From: Chloracidobacterium validum
Lineage (GTDB): Bacteria > Acidobacteriota > Blastocatellia > Chloracidobacteriales > Chloracidobacteriaceae
Length of the DNA stretch: 64,000 bases
Assembly: GCF_018304825.1 (NCBI RefSeq)
Contig: NZ_CP072648.1
Coordinates: 1,037,501 to 1,101,500 of the forward strand
Reading direction: 5' to 3'
Shown here: one piece after another, positions 13,184 to 43,521 of the stretch
Layout: each line of letters starts with the position of its first letter
How positions within the stretch are numbered: the first letter of the stretch is position 1
Made by a program: the position numbers and the translations under genes
Notes under the pieces: model-generated
Databases searched by the model: none
Told to the model about the DNA's origin: nothing
What the model saw: only the letters and a program-made list of their open reading frames with translations

Positions 13184-16100
13184 TCACGTTCTGTTATTGT
13201 CTCTACGGCTGGACTGTGTTTTCGGCGAATGGCTGTAGTCGGTCAGTGACCTTTCCAGCAAGATCGTCGCTTGTGATTCAGGGAGAATGGTTGCCTCCTC
13301 TTCTTGACCAAGGCGCTGCTCGCCACCCAGGGTTAGCCGTCCAGTCGTGGATACGACGCCGCGATAAGCCGGCAACCCGGCCGCAGCCGCTAGTCGATCA
13401 CCAAGGTCGCGTGCCGTTGGGCGCTCGTCCGGTGATTTAGCCAAGGCTTGAAACACAATCTCGGCAATCTTCGCCGGTACGTTTTTGAGTGGCGGCGGCG
13501 GTTGTTTGAGGTGACCAATAATCACACCCAGCATGCCGGTGCTTGTGGGAAGAAACGGCACTCGACCAGCGAGCATTTCATACAAAACGACACCGGCGCT
13601 GTACACATCCGAGCGCCCATCGTAGGCGCGTTCATCGAGGCGCTCAGGGGCTATGTAGATCGGTGTCCCCACCACGCCACCCGTTTCAGTCATCGCGGCC
13701 AAGGGGTCATTCGTCTCTATCTCAAGGAGTTTGGCAATGCCAAAGTCCACCACCTTGACGACTTCACCCTCCGGCGATTGGTGGAGGAAGATATTGTCCG
13801 GCTTGACATCGCGGTGAATGACACCGGCCTCATGCGCCGTCGCCAGTGCATCAAGCACCGGCAGCATGATGGATAAACTTCGCTCCACTGAAAGCGCACC
13901 ACAAAGCCTCAGTTCCGTGGCGAGCGAGACACCCTGGAGTAGCTCCATAACCAAGTAGGCAATCCCATCCGATGAAACACCGGAATCAATCACGCCAATG
14001 GCGTTTGGATGATTGATGCGGCAAGCTGAAATCCCTTCGCGCCGGAAGCGTTCGACGCTGGTGGTTGTCGCGTTTTTGCCGCTTGGGCGAAAAATTTTGA
14101 TAGCAACCGGTCGTCGCAGGGCAAGCTGTTCGGCGCGATAAACCACGCCAAATCCGCCGCCACCAATTTTCTCACCCAGTCGGTATTTGCCATCAATCAC
14201 TGTCCCCGGCAGAACATCCGTCAACGCCGTAAAGATGGCGTCGGCCCGGCGGTGAAGTTCAAGCAAGGCATCGTTTTTGCGGGCGAGTTCTTGATTTTTG
14301 ACACTGGCTTCCTGCTGTGCCACCTGGACATCCGCAAGGGCCCGTTCCAGTGCGGTGTTTTTCTCGTTGAGCTGGGCCGTGCGAACCACGACTTGCCGCT
14401 CGAGTTGGGCTGCTCGGTGCTGAAGGGTTATGGTCCGCCAGCGAAGTCCGCCCCAGAGAAGCAGTCCCAGGCTGAGGACAACCAGTCCACGCGCCCAGAT
14501 GGTCTGGTAAAAAAATGGTTTGACGGTGATGGTGATGGTCGCCGCCGTGTCGTTCCACACGCCATCGTTGTTGCAAGCCGTGACCTGAAAGCGATAGTCG
14601 CCCGGTGGAAGATTCGTGTAGTAAGCCGTCCGCCGCGTGCCTGCCTCAACCCAAGTTTTGTCAAAGCCCTCGAGCTGGAAGCGGAAGCGCACCCGCTGGG
14701 GTGCCAGAAAGCTCAAGCCGGTGTAGTGGATCTCAAACTTCTCGACGCCCGGCTCTATCACCAAGCGCGGTTGCGTCAGCGACTTGGCTGGTTCACCGAC
14801 CGCAAAGGTTTGTTGCTCGGTCACGACCTCTTCAATGACAACCGGCGGCGCATGGGGGTTGAACGGCAGCCGCTCCGGTGCGACCAATGCCACGCCGCCA
14901 ACGGTAGCAAACGCCAGCCGTCCGTCACGCTGGCGAATGGCGCAGGGCTGGGACGTTCCGTTGCATTGATTCGCTCCCATCCCATCACCAAGGTCAAAGT
15001 TGGTACAGTGAACGCGAGCTTGCGCCCCAGTCATGAAGGCCTCGCGGACGCGGCGCTCCAGGCGAAAGATGCCGCGGTTGCAACTCATCCAGAAGTCGCC
15101 GGCGGCGTCGGGCACGATGGCAAAAACGGTGTCGTCAAACAAACCATCCTTGTGGGTAAGCGTATTGAACTTACCGTCTCGGTACCAGGCCAGTCCGCTA
15201 CCGGTGCCGATCCAGAGCGTGCCATCCGTTTCCTCGTGGATGGCAAAAATCAAATTGCTTGGCAGGCCTTCCTTGACCGTGAACCGGGTCACGGTGTCCC
15301 CCTGAACCCGCATCAGTCCACGCCCGTTTGTGCCAACCCACATGGCGTCGTCGCGTGTTTGGATGATGACGCGAATGTTGCCCCCGGTGATATTTTCATT
15401 CTGGGCGTCAATCACGCGAATGACCTTTCCATCGCGCAGCACGTTGATGCCGCCGCCGACCGTCCCGACCCACAGCGAGCCGTCGCGGGCGGCGCAGAGC
15501 GCAAACACATTGTCATTGGTGAGTCCCTGAGCCGTGGTGATGCTTGTCCAGTGTCCGTTGGCGAAACTGGCTACGCCACCTTGGTTGAGTCCAAACCAGA
15601 TGCGCCCTTGCGCATCTTCGGCCGCCGCCCGGATGCCGAGCGTTTTTAGTCCATCTTCCAGCCCGTAGTGTTTCCACCGTCCCGCTGCGAGGCAGTCCAG
15701 CCCGGACTCATCCAAGCCAACCCAGAGCCGTTTTTGTGAGTCCTCAAAGACAATGCGTACGTTGGCATCCGTCAAGCCCTGATAAGTGCCCAAGTTGACA
15801 ATCTTGGACTCACGCAACCGATTGAGGCCGCCATTCGTGCCAAGCCAATAGCTCCCTTCGTGGTCGCGGCAAATCGCGCGAACGAACCGATGCGACAGTC
15901 CGTTCTGGTATGTTCGCCAGTCCCACTGGCCTTGGCTCAAGCGCCCTAAGCCACCGCTTTCTGTCCCGACCCAAAGCGTGCCGTCAGCATCTTCATAAAT
16001 GGCGTGAACGGCATCGTCCGGGAATGCCGTCTTCCGGGCATACTGGGCCAGGACTCGCCCCTGGGCGTCGAGGTGGAGCAAGCCCTGCTGGTTTGTGCCA

Positions 16101-16783
16101 GCCCAGACCGTTCCATCCCGAGCAACATGAAGCGCAAACACAATATCATTTGGCTTACCGCCATTGAGTGAGTAATTATGAAATCCGCCATCCCGGAGAA
16201 TCGAAAGGCCGCGTCCGTAGGTTGAAATCCAGAGGTCGCCACTGGGTCCTAGCGCCAGTTGCTGAAGGCTATTGAGAGGGAGTCCATCCTTGACGGTGAA
16301 GGTTTTCCACTGGCCATCGCGCCAGCAAGTCAGCCCACGACTGGTTGCAAACCAGAGCGCGCCATCTGGTGTTTGTGCGATGTCAAGGACAAAATCACTG
16401 GCCAGTCCCTGCTCGGTCGTCCAGCTTTCAAAACTACCCTGCCGGTAGCGCACCACGCCACCGCCAAAGGTGCCAATCCATAACGTGCCATCACGGTCCT
16501 CAAAGATGGCGCGGATGTTGTGATTGTGGAAGGCTGGCGTGTTTCGCCGGTCGAAGGTCACAAAGCGAACACCATCAAATCGGACCAAGCCCTCATACGT
16601 GCCAATCCACAAGTAACCGTGGTGATCCTGGGCGACGGCCAGGACGGCGGCCTGGGGTAGTTCGTCGCGCCAGGCGTCAAGCGTGTAATCGCGTAACGGC
16701 CTGACTTCCGCCGCGAGGACGAATGCCGACCACAGGCACAGCCAAACAGCAATCCGGCAAATACTGGCAAACAAGCGTGACAC
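13184..16783 (-). CDS. Reg_prop/Y_Y_Y sensor fused to a Ser/Thr protein kinase
   Basis: A 1199-residue one-protein transmembrane receptor kinase. A signal peptide or anchor (about 5-24) is followed by 13 recognisable two-component-regulator-propeller repeats (each ending LWIGT, LWVGT or similar, about 45-620), which should fold into two beta-propellers. A Y_Y_Y domain follows (about 685-765), then one membrane helix (about 768-790), a coiled coil (about 795-850) and an intact kinase domain (about 866-1130) with GGGGFGVVY, VAIKIF, HRDVKPDN near 989, DFG near 1014 and GTPIYIAPER. In the known family this extracellular architecture is normally joined to a histidine kinase or GGDEF domain. The start is GTG at 16783 with no obvious Shine-Dalgarno sequence. 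Ligand unknown. Confidence 0.9.
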   Translation of the reverse strand: MSRLFASICRIAVWLCLWSAFVLAAEVRPLRDYTLDAWRDELPQAAVLAVAQDHHGYLWIGTYEGLVRFDGVRFVTFDRRNTPAFHNHNIRAIFEDRDGTLWIGTFGGGVVRYRQGSFESWTTEQGLASDFVLDIAQTPDGALWFATSRGLTCWRDGQWKTFTVKDGLPLNSLQQLALGPSGDLWISTYGRGLSILRDGGFHNYSLNGGKPNDIVFALHVARDGTVWAGTNQQGLLHLDAQGRVLAQYARKTAFPDDAVHAIYEDADGTLWVGTESGGLGRLSQGQWDWRTYQNGLSHRFVRAICRDHEGSYWLGTNGGLNRLRESKIVNLGTYQGLTDANVRIVFEDSQKRLWVGLDESGLDCLAAGRWKHYGLEDGLKTLGIRAAAEDAQGRIWFGLNQGGVASFANGHWTSITTAQGLTNDNVFALCAARDGSLWVGTVGGGINVLRDGKVIRVIDAQNENITGGNIRVIIQTRDDAMWVGTNGRGLMRVQGDTVTRFTVKEGLPSNLIFAIHEETDGTLWIGTGSGLAWYRDGKFNTLTHKDGLFDDTVFAIVPDAAGDFWMSCNRGIFRLERRVREAFMTGAQARVHCTNFDLGDGMGANQCNGTSQPCAIRQRDGRLAFATVGGVALVAPERLPFNPHAPPVVIEEVVTEQQTFAVGEPAKSLTQPRLVIEPGVEKFEIHYTGLSFLAPQRVRFRFQLEGFDKTWVEAGTRRTAYYTNLPPGDYRFQVTACNNDGVWNDTAATITITVKPFFYQTIWARGLVVLSLGLLLWGGLRWRTITLQHRAAQLERQVVVRTAQLNEKNTALERALADVQVAQQEASVKNQELARKNDALLELHRRADAIFTALTDVLPGTVIDGKYRLGEKIGGGGFGVVYRAEQLALRRPVAIKIFRPSGKNATTTSVERFRREGISACRINHPNAIGVIDSGVSSDGIAYLVMELLQGVSLATELRLCGALSVERSLSIMLPVLDALATAHEAGVIHRDVKPDNIFLHQSPEGEVVKVVDFGIAKLLEIETNDPLAAMTETGGVVGTPIYIAPERLDERAYDGRSDVYSAGVVLYEMLAGRVPFLPTSTGMLGVIIGHLKQPPPPLKNVPAKIAEIVFQALAKSPDERPTARDLGDRLAAAAGLPAYRGVVSTTGRLTLGGEQRLGQEEEATILPESQATILLERSLTDYSHSPKTQSSRRDNNRT

Positions 16784-26230: not shown

Positions 26231-27973
26231 CTAAGGCGACGGCGAAGGGATTTCAGTGAGGTGGAAAACCTGGATAAGCGTGCGTGGTGGTTGTCGTTCG
26301 ATGGTCAGGTAGGCGCGTGCCACCGGTACCCAGGCATCGTCAAGTATCATACCGGCTGGTTGATATTCAGCAATTGGTAATCCGTCCGAAACAAGCGAAA
26401 TCTTTCCAGATGAGTGAAAGAAGGTCACAAACTGTCCGTGGTTGTTCACCGCGTAGATTGGCTCGCCCAAGTCCATTTCCGCCAATGCTTGGTTTTTGGC
26501 AAAGGTAACGAGCCGCATGGCTTGCTGATTGCCGTCTCCGAAAAGGATTGTGTGAAAATCACCGCCGACCTGTGAGCGCATAACCGTCAGTGCTGGCGAT
26601 GGCAGGCTTGCCTGATATTTGACGCTGCCCTGAGCATCCAGACAAGTGATCGTCGGACGGATTGGACCGGAATTGACCAAGATGTCATCGTCACTCAGGG
26701 CCACGATGTGGGGGGGCTGCAAGTAGTTGCACAGCGCAATTTCCCAAAGTTGCCGCCCTTCCAGCGAGTAGCCGGCCGCCTGGGTATGGCTGGCTAGGAT
26801 GAGCAGCGTTTCAGAGGGCGTAACCGCCAGACTCTTGACTGGAAAGCGAACCTGGAACAGTCGCTGTGGCGTGACCGCGCCAGCGCGCATGGCATAGAGA
26901 CTCTGGTTCGTTGCAAAGTAGCTGGTTGTGGCGGCAAGGCTTGGCGTGGCGGCAGCCGTGATCCGCTCCGGCAGGAAATAGGGAACGAAGCGCCGCCGCT
27001 CAAGCTCAAGAAATCCGGTTGTGCGGTCATCAGCAATATAGACTGTTGGCCGCTGCGCCGGGTTCAGAACAAAGAGCCGCTGGCTCCCCGCCAGCTCAAC
27101 CGTGAACCAGGGTTCGAGGCGTTGCGCCTGTTCAAGGTTTGGCGTGTCCACCTGGGGGCTTACTAGTGACGTGGCTGGTAAGCTCGTGGGGGTTGATGGT
27201 GTGAGCTGCGCGTCCAGCGCCTGCCAGAGGTCTTGAGCTGATTTGACCCGCTCTCTCGGCGACTTGCAGAGCAGGGCGGACACGAGCGGCCGGACCTGCT
27301 CTGGGATTGGACGTAAATCCGGGGGCTGCTTGGCGTGCTTGGCAAACAACTCCTCTGGCAAGCCATGAAACGGCCGGTCGCCCGTGAGGATTTCATAGAA
27401 AATAATGCCGAGCGAATAGAGGTCGCTGGCATAGGTTGAAAAGTCATAAAACTGCTCAGGGGCCATGTAGGCCGGTGAGCCGTTGGGTTTTTGCTGATCA
27501 AAAACATTTGCCAGGTGGTTGGCAATGCCAAGGTCAGCCACTTTATATGTCACGGTGCCAGTTGACGCATCGGGAAAGACAAGGATGTTTTCGGGCTTGA
27601 GATCGCGGTGGAGGATTTGTTGGCGGTGCGCGTAATCCAACCCGAGCGTTACGTCGCGTAGGACGTGTAGGGCTTCTGGGACGGGCAGCTTCCCCCGCTC
27701 ATTCAGGACATCCCGTAAACTCCCGCCAGCGGCATACTCAAGCACAAGTTTATTGCGCTGGTTGCCTTGGCCATAAATCACGTCAAAGCAACGAACGATA
27801 TTTGGATGCTGAAGCGCAATGAGTGACGAGAGTTCACGGAAAAAGAGATGGGCGGCCTTGCCGCCGCCCAGGAATTCCTTGACCGCATAGAGATCGCCAG
27901 TCGTCGAATCCCGCGCTAGGTGAACGATGGCGTGCGCTCCACTACCAATGACCTTGAGAACTTCATATACCAT
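26231..27973 (-). CDS. Ser/Thr protein kinase with C-terminal propeller-like domain
   Basis: A 580-residue kinase. The N-terminal catalytic domain (about 1-265) shows GSGAHAIVH (P-loop), YAVKEFL (Lys), HRDLKPENIL (catalytic loop), ADLGIAN (DLG replaces DFG) and GSPAYMAPEQF. A linker (about 265-310) precedes a beta-rich region (about 315-575) that looks like a WD/PQQ-type propeller. There is no transmembrane segment, so it is probably cytosolic. ATG 27973 is used; a TTG two codons earlier is possible. It lies 93 bases after the V4R gene and is followed by the 62-aa gene and htrA. A kinase in this position parallels the kinase at the end of the cyanobacterial slr0144-slr0152 operon (from memory). 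Confidence 0.9.
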   Translation of the reverse strand: MVYEVLKVIGSGAHAIVHLARDSTTGDLYAVKEFLGGGKAAHLFFRELSSLIALQHPNIVRCFDVIYGQGNQRNKLVLEYAAGGSLRDVLNERGKLPVPEALHVLRDVTLGLDYAHRQQILHRDLKPENILVFPDASTGTVTYKVADLGIANHLANVFDQQKPNGSPAYMAPEQFYDFSTYASDLYSLGIIFYEILTGDRPFHGLPEELFAKHAKQPPDLRPIPEQVRPLVSALLCKSPRERVKSAQDLWQALDAQLTPSTPTSLPATSLVSPQVDTPNLEQAQRLEPWFTVELAGSQRLFVLNPAQRPTVYIADDRTTGFLELERRRFVPYFLPERITAAATPSLAATTSYFATNQSLYAMRAGAVTPQRLFQVRFPVKSLAVTPSETLLILASHTQAAGYSLEGRQLWEIALCNYLQPPHIVALSDDDILVNSGPIRPTITCLDAQGSVKYQASLPSPALTVMRSQVGGDFHTILFGDGNQQAMRLVTFAKNQALAEMDLGEPIYAVNNHGQFVTFFHSSGKISLVSDGLPIAEYQPAGMILDDAWVPVARAYLTIERQPPRTLIQVFHLTEIPSPSP

Positions 27974-28072
27974 AGGCAATGCCTGCTGAAACCGTAGGCC
28001 AATCGGTAAGGTTCATGCGGAAAAGGCCACAGGATTGAGATGCGGCTGACAACCGCATGGAGCAAGCGCCGG

Positions 28073-38648: not shown

Positions 38649-40055
38649 ATGCCAAGGAAAGGTTCACTGCTCGTCGTTGATGACGAAGAAATCATGCGTG
38701 ATGTGCTGGAGACACTCCTCTCTGGCGCAGGTTATAGCGTCAAGCTGGCCCAAACGGGGGAGGAAGGGCTAGAACTCTATCGGGAGCAAGTGTTCGACGT
38801 CGTCCTACTGGATGTCTCCATGCCGGGCATGGGAGGCATTGCCACGCTCGACGCTTTGCTTGAACAGGATCCCGACGCGATTGTGGTGATGATCACCGCT
38901 TACGCTACCTTTGAAACAGCGGTGAGCGCCTGGCAGCGCGGGGCATTCAACTGCATCCGTAAGCCTTTTGAAAATGAAGACATCTTGCGCGTCGTAGAGG
39001 CTGGCATTCGGCGGCGGCGCAAAGACGAAGAACATGCTCAACTCAAACGAGTTTTGCAACAAAGCGCCGACAAGCATGGAATCGTTGCCCGAAGTGCCGT
39101 CATGCAGGATATTCTGGCATTGGTCGAGCAGGTTGCACCTGCGCGAACGACTGTCCTCATCCAGGGTGAATCTGGAACTGGGAAGGAACTCATTGCTCGT
39201 GCTGTTCACTTTGCAAGTCCACGGGCAAAACATGGCCAGTTTGTCGCGGTCAACTGTGGAAATATTCCAACCGAACTCCTCGAAAGTGAACTGTTTGGTC
39301 ACGTGCGAGGTGCTTTTACAGGAGCCTTTGCGGCTAAAAAAGGTTTATTTGAAATTGCCGATGGCGGGACGCTCTTTCTGGATGAAATCGGCAATATCTC
39401 ATTTGAAACACAAAGTAAATTGCTGCGTGTCATCCAAGAACGAGAGTTTATTCCCCTTGGTGATACCTCCCCGCGTCGGGTGGATGCGCGAATCGTAGCG
39501 GCTACGAATCTTGATCTAAAGCAAGCTGTTTTAGATGGCAAGTTTCGAGAAGACCTTTTTTATCGCCTCAATGTTATTACCATCAAGTTACCTCCCCTGC
39601 GTGAGCGTCCACAGGACATTCTTCCGCTAACCAGACATTTTATTCGCAAGTACAATGCTGAAAATCAACGCCAGATGTCAGAGGATATTGATCCAGAGGT
39701 GCTGGCGCTGCTTGAAGCTTATCCATTTCCAGGCAATGTGCGTGAGCTTGAGAATATTATTGAACGGGCAGTTGTCATTTCACGCACCGACCGTCTAACC
39801 ATGGAATGTTTGCGCGATGAAATATTAAATCCAACGGCAAAAAGTACGCCATCTGCATTTTCAGGAAACTTGCTCTCCTCACAACTTGATATTTCTCAGG
39901 GAATACGTTTCTATGACGTCGTTGCACAGTTTGAGATAGAGCTTATCCAGCGAGCGCTTGATTTTACGCATAATCATCAGAGCCGAGCTGCCAAGCTGCT
40001 CAATCTGAACCCTACGACATTAAATAGCAAAATCAAGAACTATAACATAAAATAA
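38649..40055 (+). CDS. Sigma54-dependent response regulator (NtrC/PilR family)
   Basis: A 468-residue transcription activator. The receiver domain (about 5-120; VVDDEEIM, VLLDVSMPGMGG, KPF) is followed by the sigma54-activator AAA+ domain (about 140-380) with GESGTGKE, the sigma54-contact loop GAFTGA, DGGTLFLDEI and RVDARIVAATN. A Fis-type helix-turn-helix ends the protein (SRAAKLLNLNPTTLNSKIKNYNIK). The likely partner is the PilS/NtrB-type histidine kinase at 41737-43521, on the other side of the glycosyltransferase gene. The 3' half is markedly AT-richer than the 5' half. Target promoters are not evident in the window. Confidence 0.93.
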   Translation: MPRKGSLLVVDDEEIMRDVLETLLSGAGYSVKLAQTGEEGLELYREQVFDVVLLDVSMPGMGGIATLDALLEQDPDAIVVMITAYATFETAVSAWQRGAFNCIRKPFENEDILRVVEAGIRRRRKDEEHAQLKRVLQQSADKHGIVARSAVMQDILALVEQVAPARTTVLIQGESGTGKELIARAVHFASPRAKHGQFVAVNCGNIPTELLESELFGHVRGAFTGAFAAKKGLFEIADGGTLFLDEIGNISFETQSKLLRVIQEREFIPLGDTSPRRVDARIVAATNLDLKQAVLDGKFREDLFYRLNVITIKLPPLRERPQDILPLTRHFIRKYNAENQRQMSEDIDPEVLALLEAYPFPGNVRELENIIERAVVISRTDRLTMECLRDEILNPTAKSTPSAFSGNLLSSQLDISQGIRFYDVVAQFEIELIQRALDFTHNHQSRAAKLLNLNPTTLNSKIKNYNIK

Positions 40056-40122
40056 AACCTATATCATGACAGACCGGTAAAATCTTATATTGTCTCCAAG
40101 TATCTACACGGATGAAGCTAAC

Positions 40123-41700
40123 ATGATACCAGGACTTGAGAAATTTACTAACACAAATAACATTAGTTATATTTATACGCTTGACACATTTGACTGGATA
40201 GTGTTTTTACTCTATTTTGGCTTACTTTTTATTCTTGCAGTCTACGGAGCTTATCGCCTAAGAATCACATACTTGTTCTTGAAGTATCACCAATTTAGGC
40301 CTGAGCCTAAAGCCTACTTCAGTGAAGATGATCTGCCACCTGTAACGGTTCAACTGCCACTTTTCAATGAAATGTACGTGGTTGAGCGCCTGCTGGCATC
40401 TTGTGTCGCGCTTGATTATCCAAAAGCTAAACTTGAGATTCAGGTACTAGACGATTCCACGGATGAAACCCAGTCCATCGCCAGGGCTGCCGTGGAGCGT
40501 TATGCTGCCCAGGGTTTTGACATCGTTTATTTACATCGAACGGATCGCGCTGGTTTCAAGGCAGGCGCGTTGCAAGCGGGACTCAACGTTGCTAAAGGAC
40601 AATTCATCCTAATTTTTGATGCTGACTTTCAGCCGAAGCCAGATTGCATTCGCAAGATGATTCACTACTTCACTGAGCCACGGGTAGGCGTCGTCCAGTT
40701 TAGGTGGAGTCATCTCAATGCGGATTATAACCTCCTGACGCGCGTTCAGAGTGTCATGCTCGATGGTCATTTTGTCATTGAACACACGGCGCGTCATCGA
40801 AGTGGCGGGTTTTTCAACTTCAATGGCACGGCTGGGATGTGGCGACGCGAAGCCATCACCTGGTCGGGTGGGTGGCAGGCTGATACGCTAGCCGAAGACA
40901 CAGATTTGAGCTATCGCGCCCAGCTTTTGGGTTGGAAGTTTGTTTATGTTTTGGACGAAGACGTACCGGCAGAACTCCCAGTTGATATCAACGCTTTCAA
41001 AGTGCAGCAACGGCGCTGGGCAAAGGGTTACACGCAAGTCGCGCTGAAAATTCTGCCGCGCTTGAGAAACCTTGACTTACCACTTCATGCCAAAATCGAA
41101 ACCTTTTTTCACTTATCTGGTAATCTCATTTATCCATTGATGATTTTATTCCATTTGCTCCATCTGCCAATTCTAATAATTCGATATAACCAAGGGCTTT
41201 TTCATCTCATGCTGCTTGATGTGCCCTTTTTGCTTCTTTCAACCTTTTCGGTTACATCATATTATTTTATATCCCTCAAGGAATTATACGGAAGAAAATG
41301 GAAAAACCTGCTGATGATCTATCTAGCAATGTCAATAGGTGTTGGTATTTCAATCAGCAATGCCAAAGCCGTTTTGGAAGCATTATTTGGCATTAAAAGT
41401 GATTTTATCAGAACTCCAAAATATGCTATTGAAGACAATAAGAAAGAAGAAAAATGGCAAAAGAAAAAATACCGCCGTGCTATGGGTTGGCTTCCATTGC
41501 TTGAAATTGGGATGGCCGTCTATTTTCTGTTTGCAATTATCTACGCCGTCAATAGCGAGATGTGGGGTGTGCTGCCATTCCTCTCCATTTTTATCATTGG
41601 CTATGGTTATGTCGGCATTGCCTCACTCCTGAACGGGCTAGGCCTGCTGCACATGGCTAAATCTTCAACCGATAATCAACTTTCTCCCGCAACGGAGTAA
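40123..41700 (+). CDS. Cellulose-synthase-like family 2 glycosyltransferase
   Basis: A 525-residue membrane glycosyltransferase. A first helix (about 17-40) precedes the GT2 catalytic domain with VLDDSTDE, FDADFQP, AEDTDLSYRA and QQRRWAKG, the D, D, D, Q(Q/R)xRW pattern of processive beta-glycan synthases. Four more helices end the protein. The closest known types are glucomannan synthase/CslA-like enzymes and bacterial polysaccharide synthases. ATG 40123 is chosen; a TTG at 40090 is in frame. It sits between the sigma54 regulator and the sensor kinase, so the system may control an exopolysaccharide. Low GC compared with the window. Confidence 0.88.
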   Translation: MIPGLEKFTNTNNISYIYTLDTFDWIVFLLYFGLLFILAVYGAYRLRITYLFLKYHQFRPEPKAYFSEDDLPPVTVQLPLFNEMYVVERLLASCVALDYPKAKLEIQVLDDSTDETQSIARAAVERYAAQGFDIVYLHRTDRAGFKAGALQAGLNVAKGQFILIFDADFQPKPDCIRKMIHYFTEPRVGVVQFRWSHLNADYNLLTRVQSVMLDGHFVIEHTARHRSGGFFNFNGTAGMWRREAITWSGGWQADTLAEDTDLSYRAQLLGWKFVYVLDEDVPAELPVDINAFKVQQRRWAKGYTQVALKILPRLRNLDLPLHAKIETFFHLSGNLIYPLMILFHLLHLPILIIRYNQGLFHLMLLDVPFLLLSTFSVTSYYFISLKELYGRKWKNLLMIYLAMSIGVGISISNAKAVLEALFGIKSDFIRTPKYAIEDNKKEEKWQKKKYRRAMGWLPLLEIGMAVYFLFAIIYAVNSEMWGVLPFLSIFIIGYGYVGIASLLNGLGLLHMAKSSTDNQLSPATE

Positions 41701-41736
41701 ACTGTGACCCAGCAGCTCCGTTGAAATGGTCATTGC

Positions 41737-43521
41737 CTAGGATTGTTCACTAGATTTTGTGTCACTGGCCGGTTTTGACGCCATGGCTGATGAAGAAAAC
41801 GAGAGTGCCGGAACGCCAGACGGCGTTCGTTTTAGCTGCCGCCGCGAATCGGCTAGGATATCGTTTTGTAGTAGTGGGGAACCAGTTGTCTGTGGAAGCG
41901 TCACGATAACTTCCGCTCCGGTAGTCCCATCCGTGCGGTTATGAATGCTAATGCGTCCGCCATGGTCTGAGACAATTTGGTAAACAATCGCCATGCCTAG
42001 CCCGGTGCCGCCCTCGCGATTGGAGTTGAACGGCTCGAATGGGCGCTCCAGGTTATCTTTTGGAAAGCCGGTTCCCGTATCCGTCAGGCGGATTTCAATC
42101 TGGTCGGCAAGTGGTCGGAGTGTGACACTGAGCTTCCCGCCGTGGGGCATGGCTTGAATGGCGTTGCGCGCCAGATTCCAGATCACCTGCTTGAGCTGAT
42201 CGCTGTCTGCCACAATCGCCGGCAAGTCTGGCGGAGACTGAAGTGTGATTTCGTGATCGGTTCGTGTCTCAGAGCTATGCTGGAGCAGGGAAAGTGTATC
42301 ACCGATGAGCCGTTCAAGGTTGACGGCGACCGGTTGCAACGATCGGGGGCGGGCGTACTTGAGAAAGTCTTCAATGGTGCGGTTGAGGCGGTCGGATTCA
42401 CGGAGAATGATGCGCATGAGCCTGGCCTGCTCGTCATCGAGACGTAGCTCAGACTGGAGCATCTGAATCGAGCCACGCATGGCGGCAAGTGGGTTACGGA
42501 TTTCATGCGCGATGCCGGCCGCCATTTTTCCAAGCGCGGCCAGGCGATCTTGGCGACGGATTTCTTCCTCAAGCTTGATAATTTCAGTCAGGTCTTGGAA
42601 AGAAAGAACATAACCAGTGATGTCATCTGACTCGCTGGTGAGCGGCGACATCGCAAACCCCAATCGCAGGGTTCGCCCATCAGCCGCCTGGCAGTCAGCT
42701 TCAAATCTGCGAAACTCGTCTTTTTGAGGCGTAACTGGTAATCGCTCAGGCTCAAAGTTACAGTCAAGTTCACCAAAGATGTCTCGCAGGTGCTTGTTTC
42801 GCACGACCTTCATGCGGTAGCCGGTAATTTCCTCAGCCGCGCGGTTGAAGGTAACGATTCTGCCGCTCAGGTCAATCGTAACCAGTCCGCTTTTGACACT
42901 TTCGACAATGCGCTCGTTGAATGCCCGCAGTTGGGCCAGGTCCCGGGCGGCGGCTTCAAGTTCCGCGTCGCTTCGCCGCAGCCGTTCGGCGAGTTGTCCG
43001 CCAAGAACGGTCAGCGCCAGAATGGCAACCACATAAAGCAGAGGGTTGTTTTGCAAGTAGCGTTCGTTTTGCTCGACAATGGCGTATCCCCCAACCAGCA
43101 ACCCAACCTTGAAGGCCATGATGAGTCCGACGTAGGCCAGGGCGCACGTAATCCCAATCGCAATCGTGCCGATGCGCGGCAAAATCATGGCCGCAACGAA
43201 GACGATCACGAGATAGAGCGGCGCCAGCGGGAAGGCTGAATCGCGCATCTGGTAGGTGAGCCACGTCACGGCAATGACATCCCCGAGCAGTTGGACATAA
43301 CCCTGCACGAGATAGAGCGTGGACATCCGCAGCCAAGTGAAATAGAACACCGAAAGCAATCCAACCACAACCGCCAACCAGACCAGCGGTTGCGGGTTGA
43401 TGTCGGCGTTGGCCCAGGAGTTTTCCGAGCGCGCCATGGCGACGGCGAGTGAGAGCAGGATGGAGATGACAACCAGCCGCGAAACGATGAGGTTGATGAG
43501 GCGCGTGTAGAGCGGGTTCAT
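41737..43521 (-). CDS. PilS/NtrB-like membrane histidine kinase
   Basis: A 594-residue sensor kinase. Six N-terminal membrane helices (about 10-185) form the PilS-like sensor region; a coiled linker leads to a PAS domain (about 205-320; SGLVTIDLSGRIVTFNRAAEEITGY). The HisKA box is AHEIRNPLAAMRG (about 375), and the ATPase has NLARNAIQAM, DTGTGFP and GGTGLGMAI. A 40-residue Ser/Pro-rich tail follows. It faces the NtrC/PilR-type gene across the glycosyltransferase and is likely its partner. ATG 43521; the stop is 36 bases from the convergent glycosyltransferase stop. Confidence 0.92.
   Translation of the reverse strand: MNPLYTRLINLIVSRLVVISILLSLAVAMARSENSWANADINPQPLVWLAVVVGLLSVFYFTWLRMSTLYLVQGYVQLLGDVIAVTWLTYQMRDSAFPLAPLYLVIVFVAAMILPRIGTIAIGITCALAYVGLIMAFKVGLLVGGYAIVEQNERYLQNNPLLYVVAILALTVLGGQLAERLRRSDAELEAAARDLAQLRAFNERIVESVKSGLVTIDLSGRIVTFNRAAEEITGYRMKVVRNKHLRDIFGELDCNFEPERLPVTPQKDEFRRFEADCQAADGRTLRLGFAMSPLTSESDDITGYVLSFQDLTEIIKLEEEIRRQDRLAALGKMAAGIAHEIRNPLAAMRGSIQMLQSELRLDDEQARLMRIILRESDRLNRTIEDFLKYARPRSLQPVAVNLERLIGDTLSLLQHSSETRTDHEITLQSPPDLPAIVADSDQLKQVIWNLARNAIQAMPHGGKLSVTLRPLADQIEIRLTDTGTGFPKDNLERPFEPFNSNREGGTGLGMAIVYQIVSDHGGRISIHNRTDGTTGAEVIVTLPQTTGSPLLQNDILADSRRQLKRTPSGVPALSFSSSAMASKPASDTKSSEQS

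Follow-up and report, generated by a model that had tools for sequence, protein, structure and literature searches.

The 64,000-nt stretch of the Chloracidobacterium validum genome analysed here (the window) contains, within a genome of two contigs and 3.66 Mb, a single intact open reading frame for a receptor Ser/Thr kinase (Table 1). Pfam recognized three domains in the protein, all scoring well over their gathering cut-offs—Reg_prop (200 bits), Y_Y_Y (73.9 bits, aa 693–755), and Pkinase (163.3 bits, aa 867–1127)—and the domain order runs from a signal helix through 14 Reg_prop blades, Y_Y_Y, one transmembrane helix, and a coiled coil to a Hanks-type kinase. The description given by an earlier, sequence-only reading, that of a Reg_prop/Y_Y_Y receptor fused to a complete Ser/Thr kinase, is borne out by the intact 1199-aa frame, the Pfam matches, and the motifs; its thirteen propeller repeats are replaced by 14 blade cores (12 by pattern plus two by eye at about residues 351 and 478, the last blade being degenerate), a number that fits two seven-bladed propellers. 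The kinase has the full set of Hanks motifs (GGGGFGVV at residue 874, VAIK at 893, HRDVKPDN at 990, DFG at 1013, and APE at 1045), and hydropathy predicts, apart from the N-terminal signal helix, one membrane-spanning stretch (aa 761–780) between the outer sensor and the inner kinase, the arrangement of a Hanks-type receptor kinase.

Table 1. Parts of the receptor kinase gene and other features of the window (window coordinates)
Feature	Position	Strand	Basis
Complete receptor Ser/Thr kinase gene, 1199 aa	13184..16783	-	ORF, GTG start, Pfam, orthologues
C-terminal tail, aa 1128–1199	13187..13402	-	47–57% identity among orthologues; pLDDT mostly <50
Hanks-type Ser/Thr kinase domain, aa 867–1127, motifs all intact	13403..14185	-	Pfam, motifs, nearest structures PknA/PknB
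Coiled-coil signalling linker, aa 783–866, conserved LPGTVIDGKYRL motif at end	14186..14437	-	Alignment A1; model helices, low pLDDT
Single transmembrane helix, aa 758–782	14438..14512	-	Hydropathy; model helix from 762
Y_Y_Y domain, aa 689–757	14513..14719	-	Pfam 693–755, 73.9 bits
Periplasmic Reg_prop region, 14 blades, two seven-bladed propellers, aa 31–688	14720..16693	-	Pfam, Foldseek, phmmer
N-terminal signal/anchor helix, aa 1–24	16712..16783	-	Hydropathy maximum 2.04 at aa 4; model helix 2–23
Second Ser/Thr kinase, 582 aa; N-terminal kinase, long C-terminal part	26231..27979	-	
Family 2 glycosyltransferase gene, possibly of foreign origin	40090..41700		
PDZ + SpoIIE phosphatase, 908 aa	55973..58699	-	

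In an AlphaFold2 model of the receptor (40-row alignment, mean pLDDT 83.4, pTM 0.62), the propellers, Y_Y_Y, long helix, and kinase are all visible, with the long helix spanning residues 762–819, a further helix at 822–856, and low pLDDT in the linker. Foldseek matched the periplasmic part to BT4663 (4a2m/4a2l; TM-score by target 0.80–0.83), phmmer aligned 4a2l to residues 32–762, and BT4663 is the closest solved sensor at 23–24% identity; for the kinase domain, the nearest solved structures by Foldseek were PknA/PknB. The poorly conserved tail is probably disordered.

Full-length orthologues with 77–78% identity were found in four of the six other Chloracidobacterium genomes searched (G001, G002, G005, and G006) and were absent from the remaining two (G003 and G004). 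Eight flanking genes are syntenic around the orthologue in all four, with the order prmA, era, a plsC-like gene, surE, a lipase-like gene, a DNA methylase gene, a glycosyltransferase-like gene, and a menaquinone gene; across the five genomes, the neighbours are mostly housekeeping genes, and no phosphatase gene adjoins the receptor gene in the window. The four syntenic orthologues rule out an assembly or gene-prediction artefact. Compared with the orthologues, dN/dS was 0.05–0.07 for the kinase (dS >1.3) and 0.08–0.10 for the sensor, values that are rough because dS is near saturation in both; on these estimates, purifying selection acts on the kinase and on the sensor. A dead kinase is likewise unsupported, given that all motifs are present and the domain appears constrained. 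Elsewhere in the window, positions 40001–42000, where the glycosyltransferase gene lies, have a G+C of 0.448 versus approximately 0.58.

Reg_prop receptors in the genome and the phylum

The window's genome (G000) encodes 17 Reg_prop receptors, namely 16 large Reg_prop frames and L098, which was located via its Y_Y_Y domain and then confirmed by Pfam; one further weak Y_Y_Y match lies at C2:344205. By Pfam, six receptors end in a Ser/Thr kinase (the window receptor, L012, two in L013, L016, and L018), eight in a SpoIIE/PP2C phosphatase (L009, two in L010, L011, L015, L017, L019, and L098), and two in a histidine kinase with HisKA/HATPase domains (L014 and L021). The last, L020 (L020:599–4732), has CarboxypepD_reg domains before its propellers and no Pfam output; by reading, its output looks like an AAA-type ATPase. 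Genome-wide, 42 of 45 Pkinase matches and all 23 SpoIIE matches pass the cut-offs. The catalytic motif sites SGDFY, DCTGHG, and DG..D are kept in all eight phosphatase receptors, among which the pattern for the fourth SpoIIE motif was not matched in L019. A separate open frame of 1790 aa (G000:C2:477813–483059) contains both Pkinase and SpoIIE matches and is probably a single protein with kinase and SpoIIE.

The sensors of the window receptor and of the SpoIIE receptor L009 are reciprocal best matches within the genome (41% over 725 aa), a similarity that does not show that the two receptors share a ligand. Of the five genomes that carry the window gene, four (G000, G001, G002, and G005) also have an L009-type phosphatase receptor (the relation to L009 itself was measured for L190 only, at 76% identity), and G003 and G004 have neither gene. 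In G006, the window orthologue is present and no L009-type match reaches E 1e-60, so a genome need not have both, and because these genomes are closely related, the co-occurrence of the two receptors is weak evidence.

Among related sensors at large, the sequence-only reading's expectation of histidine kinase or GGDEF outputs proved right—a contig scan of 79 loci gave 42 HK-like and 10 GGDEF outputs, along with two SpoIIE, six Ser/Thr kinase, 14 other, and five cut (in these counts, L102, L103, and L104 repeat L096, L186, and L087). The classes were assigned with home-made profiles and motifs, two proteins alone having gone into the HK profile, and the 14 others may therefore hide known outputs.

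The idea that the window receptor is a unique protein was rejected, as a search for its architecture, which the same reading had proposed, found it recurring in the order and elsewhere in Acidobacteriota as well as in the six receptors of its own genome. Junction-spanning matches to A1, running from Y_Y_Y through the kinase and starting at or before position 4, were found in at least six of 396 phylum genomes (at least 20 rows), all from the same order; the search scored the best four candidates per genome, making this a lower bound, and the order holds more. The same fusion is also found with a second, distantly related lineage of kinases (L117 and L150), and A3 matches starting at or before position 15 occurred in three of 297 genomes (G011, G032, and G180; five rows). 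Our own Y_Y_Y pattern, which is too strict, matched none of the nine loci L245–L253, and the A3 profile itself covers Y_Y_Y. A kinase clade uniting L117, L150, and L161 of Aminicenantes with the receptors of the order was rejected (p 0.0008); elsewhere in Acidobacteriota, one or more further kinase lineages made the Reg_prop/Y_Y_Y fusion independently.

Kinases related to those of the receptors also stand on other inputs. Near relatives in G215 and G263 are Response_reg + Pkinase proteins (L100 and L101), and in G000, G004, and G006, a kinase near the receptor-kinase group adjoins a SiaC gene. At L244:291–1980 (G000:C1:588–590 kb), SiaC lies beside a 403-aa protein in which a Ser/Thr kinase takes the place of GGDEF on a SiaD-like stalk. 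Over 96 aa, this stalk shares 37.5% identity (E 1e-19) with that of the GGDEF protein at the genome's other SiaC locus, L243:1444–3342 (G000:C2:256.9 kb), which encodes SiaC, a SiaD-like GGDEF protein, and a SiaB-like DUF6272 protein in a row. SiaC of Pseudomonas aeruginosa is described as activating SiaD by stabilising a stalk-mediated dimer (PMC8457831). The presence of a kinase instead of GGDEF on a stalk of this kind suggests that coiled-coil dimerisation may be the shared principle of control. In G235, a 1409-aa protein (L093:825–5054) ends in a related-group kinase, and the blade pattern matched nowhere in it.

Histories of sensor and kinase

Sensors with a Y_Y_Y domain, a length of 600–950 aa, and a non-identical sequence numbered 147, and the sensor tree comprised 78 of these—those of the order and those of 11 loci farther away—with L020 left out and L098 absent too. 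The kinase tree took in 20 of the 36 non-receptor genome kinases passing the Pfam cut-off, together with the second kinase of the window, which has a very long branch; both trees were computed in 'quick' mode, and many kinase branches are weak. The five orthologues of the window clade belong to a nine-row set with support 93, in which the other four rows are two SpoIIE sensors, L009 and L190 (G001), paired with each other, and a histidine kinase pair, L181 and L182. Another SpoIIE receptor, L017, pairs by its sensor with the Ser/Thr kinase receptor L217 (99, a starred branch). Across the 78 rows, the Ser/Thr kinase label requires 14 changes, compared to a mean of 25.2 in shuffles, and the starred branches force at least seven changes.

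A single clade for the order's 30 Ser/Thr kinase sensors was rejected (AU p 2.9e-9), and with it a single fusion inherited together with its sensor. For the kinases belonging to these receptors (29 distinct rows), a single clade was compatible with the data (p 0.989), and the tree so constrained was 69 log units better than the free tree, a result that shows compatibility with one kinase clade and not proof of it. Since the sensors do not form one clade and the kinases may, one cassette of transmembrane helix, coiled coil, and kinase would have been attached repeatedly to different sensors or, alternatively, lost and then regained through swapping.

Tandem receptors carry a direct trace of this exchange and show the extent of the cassette. 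In the pair at L013:3660–10986 (G000:C1:954159–961485), strongly diverged sensors stand above a near-identical output cassette, with 99.5% DNA identity over 1151 bp from the transmembrane helix to the kinase end; the tandem pair of G001 likewise shares 1161 bp at 98.3% (the comparison also took in loci L241 and L242). Between genomes, identity of the tandem cassette is only about 86%, from which it follows that each genome homogenised its own pair, and the tandem copies put the exchange unit at approximately 1.15 kb, from the transmembrane helix through the kinase. In G006, a single gene matches the first G001 gene at its front (96.4% over 3560 bp) and the second at its end, including the tail (89.7% over 1390 bp), which looks like the pattern expected of recombination through the cassette.

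Known relatives, proposed receptor control, and significance

Both halves of the receptor are of known kinds. The sensor resembles that of the Bacteroides hybrid two-component systems (BT4663, BT3049), with two Reg_prop propellers, Y_Y_Y, and a matching periplasmic fold, but the output is a Ser/Thr kinase with no HisKA, HATPase, receiver, or AraC/HTH domain in the Pfam scan, and the genome, unlike those systems, has no SusD. PASTA kinases such as PknB/Stk1 share the kinase domain, whose nearest solved structures are PknA/PknB, whereas the window receptor lacks PASTA domains by Pfam, and its NCBIfam PknB_PASTA_kin match (258.6 bits, below the cut-off of 450) covers the kinase part only. In the SiaABCD system of P. 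aeruginosa, where SiaA is a SpoIIE-type phosphatase, Ser/Thr phosphorylation is similarly opposed by such a phosphatase, and a SiaD-like stalk carries a related-group kinase in L244, but no Sia component lies beside the window receptor. PknD of Mycobacterium tuberculosis is already a propeller receptor kinase, described as having an extracellular beta-propeller (PMC1262709, PMC2877116), with a Hanks kinase inside, the propeller outside, and one membrane span; its kinase comes first and its six-bladed NHL propeller last, as described, while the window receptor has the reverse order, with 14 Reg_prop blades and Y_Y_Y. In the open-licence literature as available to us, we found no report of Reg_prop/Y_Y_Y joined to a Ser/Thr kinase, an architecture that Pfam/InterPro lists may well show, nor one of this architecture in Chloracidobacterium; the available part of the Solibacter genome paper mentions many Ser/Thr kinases and no propeller (PMC3174227).

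The reading that we favour, with a probability of roughly 0.7, is that of a class of receptor kinases built from one transmembrane–coiled-coil–kinase cassette on sensors of the hybrid two-component type, controlled by ligand as dimers and opposed by SpoIIE/PP2C receptors. Beyond the observed architecture, intact motifs, conservation, discordant histories, and sister-type PP2C sensor, and the predicted fold, we infer a mechanism as follows. Within a receptor dimer, ligand in the propeller pair would shift the two Y_Y_Y domains, and the transmembrane helix and coiled coil would pass this change on and bring two kinase domains together; after phosphorylating each other in trans, these would act on Ser/Thr targets in the cytosol. 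Removal of such phosphates would fall to SpoIIE/PP2C receptors whose sensors are related, such that kinase and phosphatase receptors may set the phosphorylation state by related external cues. The scheme is drawn by analogy with the dimer rearrangement of hybrid two-component sensors and the activation in trans of PknB/PknD-type kinases. We advance more tentatively, and with less than even odds, a push–pull arrangement in which the same sensor type on kinase or PP2C outputs would act on shared phosphoproteins, the recombining cassette would have relatives on receiver and SiaD-type inputs, and the window gene and L009 would form one opposing pair.

The favoured reading has a narrower form, not exclusive of it, in which the receptor signals into a two-component or partner-switching pathway by phosphorylating a receiver, STAS, or SiaC-type substrate rather than many targets. 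The four STAS and two SiaC proteins of the genome and the SiaC-adjoining kinases in G000, G004, and G006 are consistent with this, but no STAS or SiaC gene lies near the window gene, and the kinase linked to SiaC is not the window receptor; we regard this form as possible, if doubtful. The proposal of a eukaryote-like receptor kinase for polysaccharide or surface signals stood in its receptor-kinase part, on the evidence of domains, fold, synteny, and selection, but found no support in its polysaccharide part. If the propellers bound polysaccharide fragments and the kinase turned on uptake or degradation genes, the resemblance to a heparin/heparan sulphate sensor, BT4663 (23–24% identity, TM-score about 0.8), would be accounted for. 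Against this, SusD was absent from the window's genome (the one genome searched), the neighbours in five genomes are mostly housekeeping genes, and the fold family is common to sensors with many outputs. Linked SusC/SusD would be expected beside the regulator of a polysaccharide utilisation locus, and the SusD search and the neighbouring genes give no sign of such a locus; a glycan receptor of this kind is unlikely; a surface or small-molecule ligand is possible. It is also quite improbable that the kinase is active and not controlled by ligand, with the outer part serving only to anchor or position the kinase, say on a structure of the cell surface: the low-confidence prediction of the linker region would suit such a role, but the sensor dN/dS of 0.08–0.10 argues against it, as does the retention of related sensors on histidine kinase, GGDEF, SpoIIE, and Ser/Thr kinase outputs, which normally need input control.

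In this lineage, then, sensors of a single kind appear to be rewired to outputs of differing kinds, and it is the exchange between kinase and phosphatase outputs on the same sensor type that is of specialist interest. These receptors would provide a natural set in which one sensor type is found on kinase, phosphatase, histidine kinase, and GGDEF outputs, with the cassette borders visible in the DNA. They would make it testable how a periplasmic signal crosses a single helix to control a bacterial Hanks kinase, and whether receptor kinases with matching receptor phosphatases also occur in organisms other than eukaryotes.
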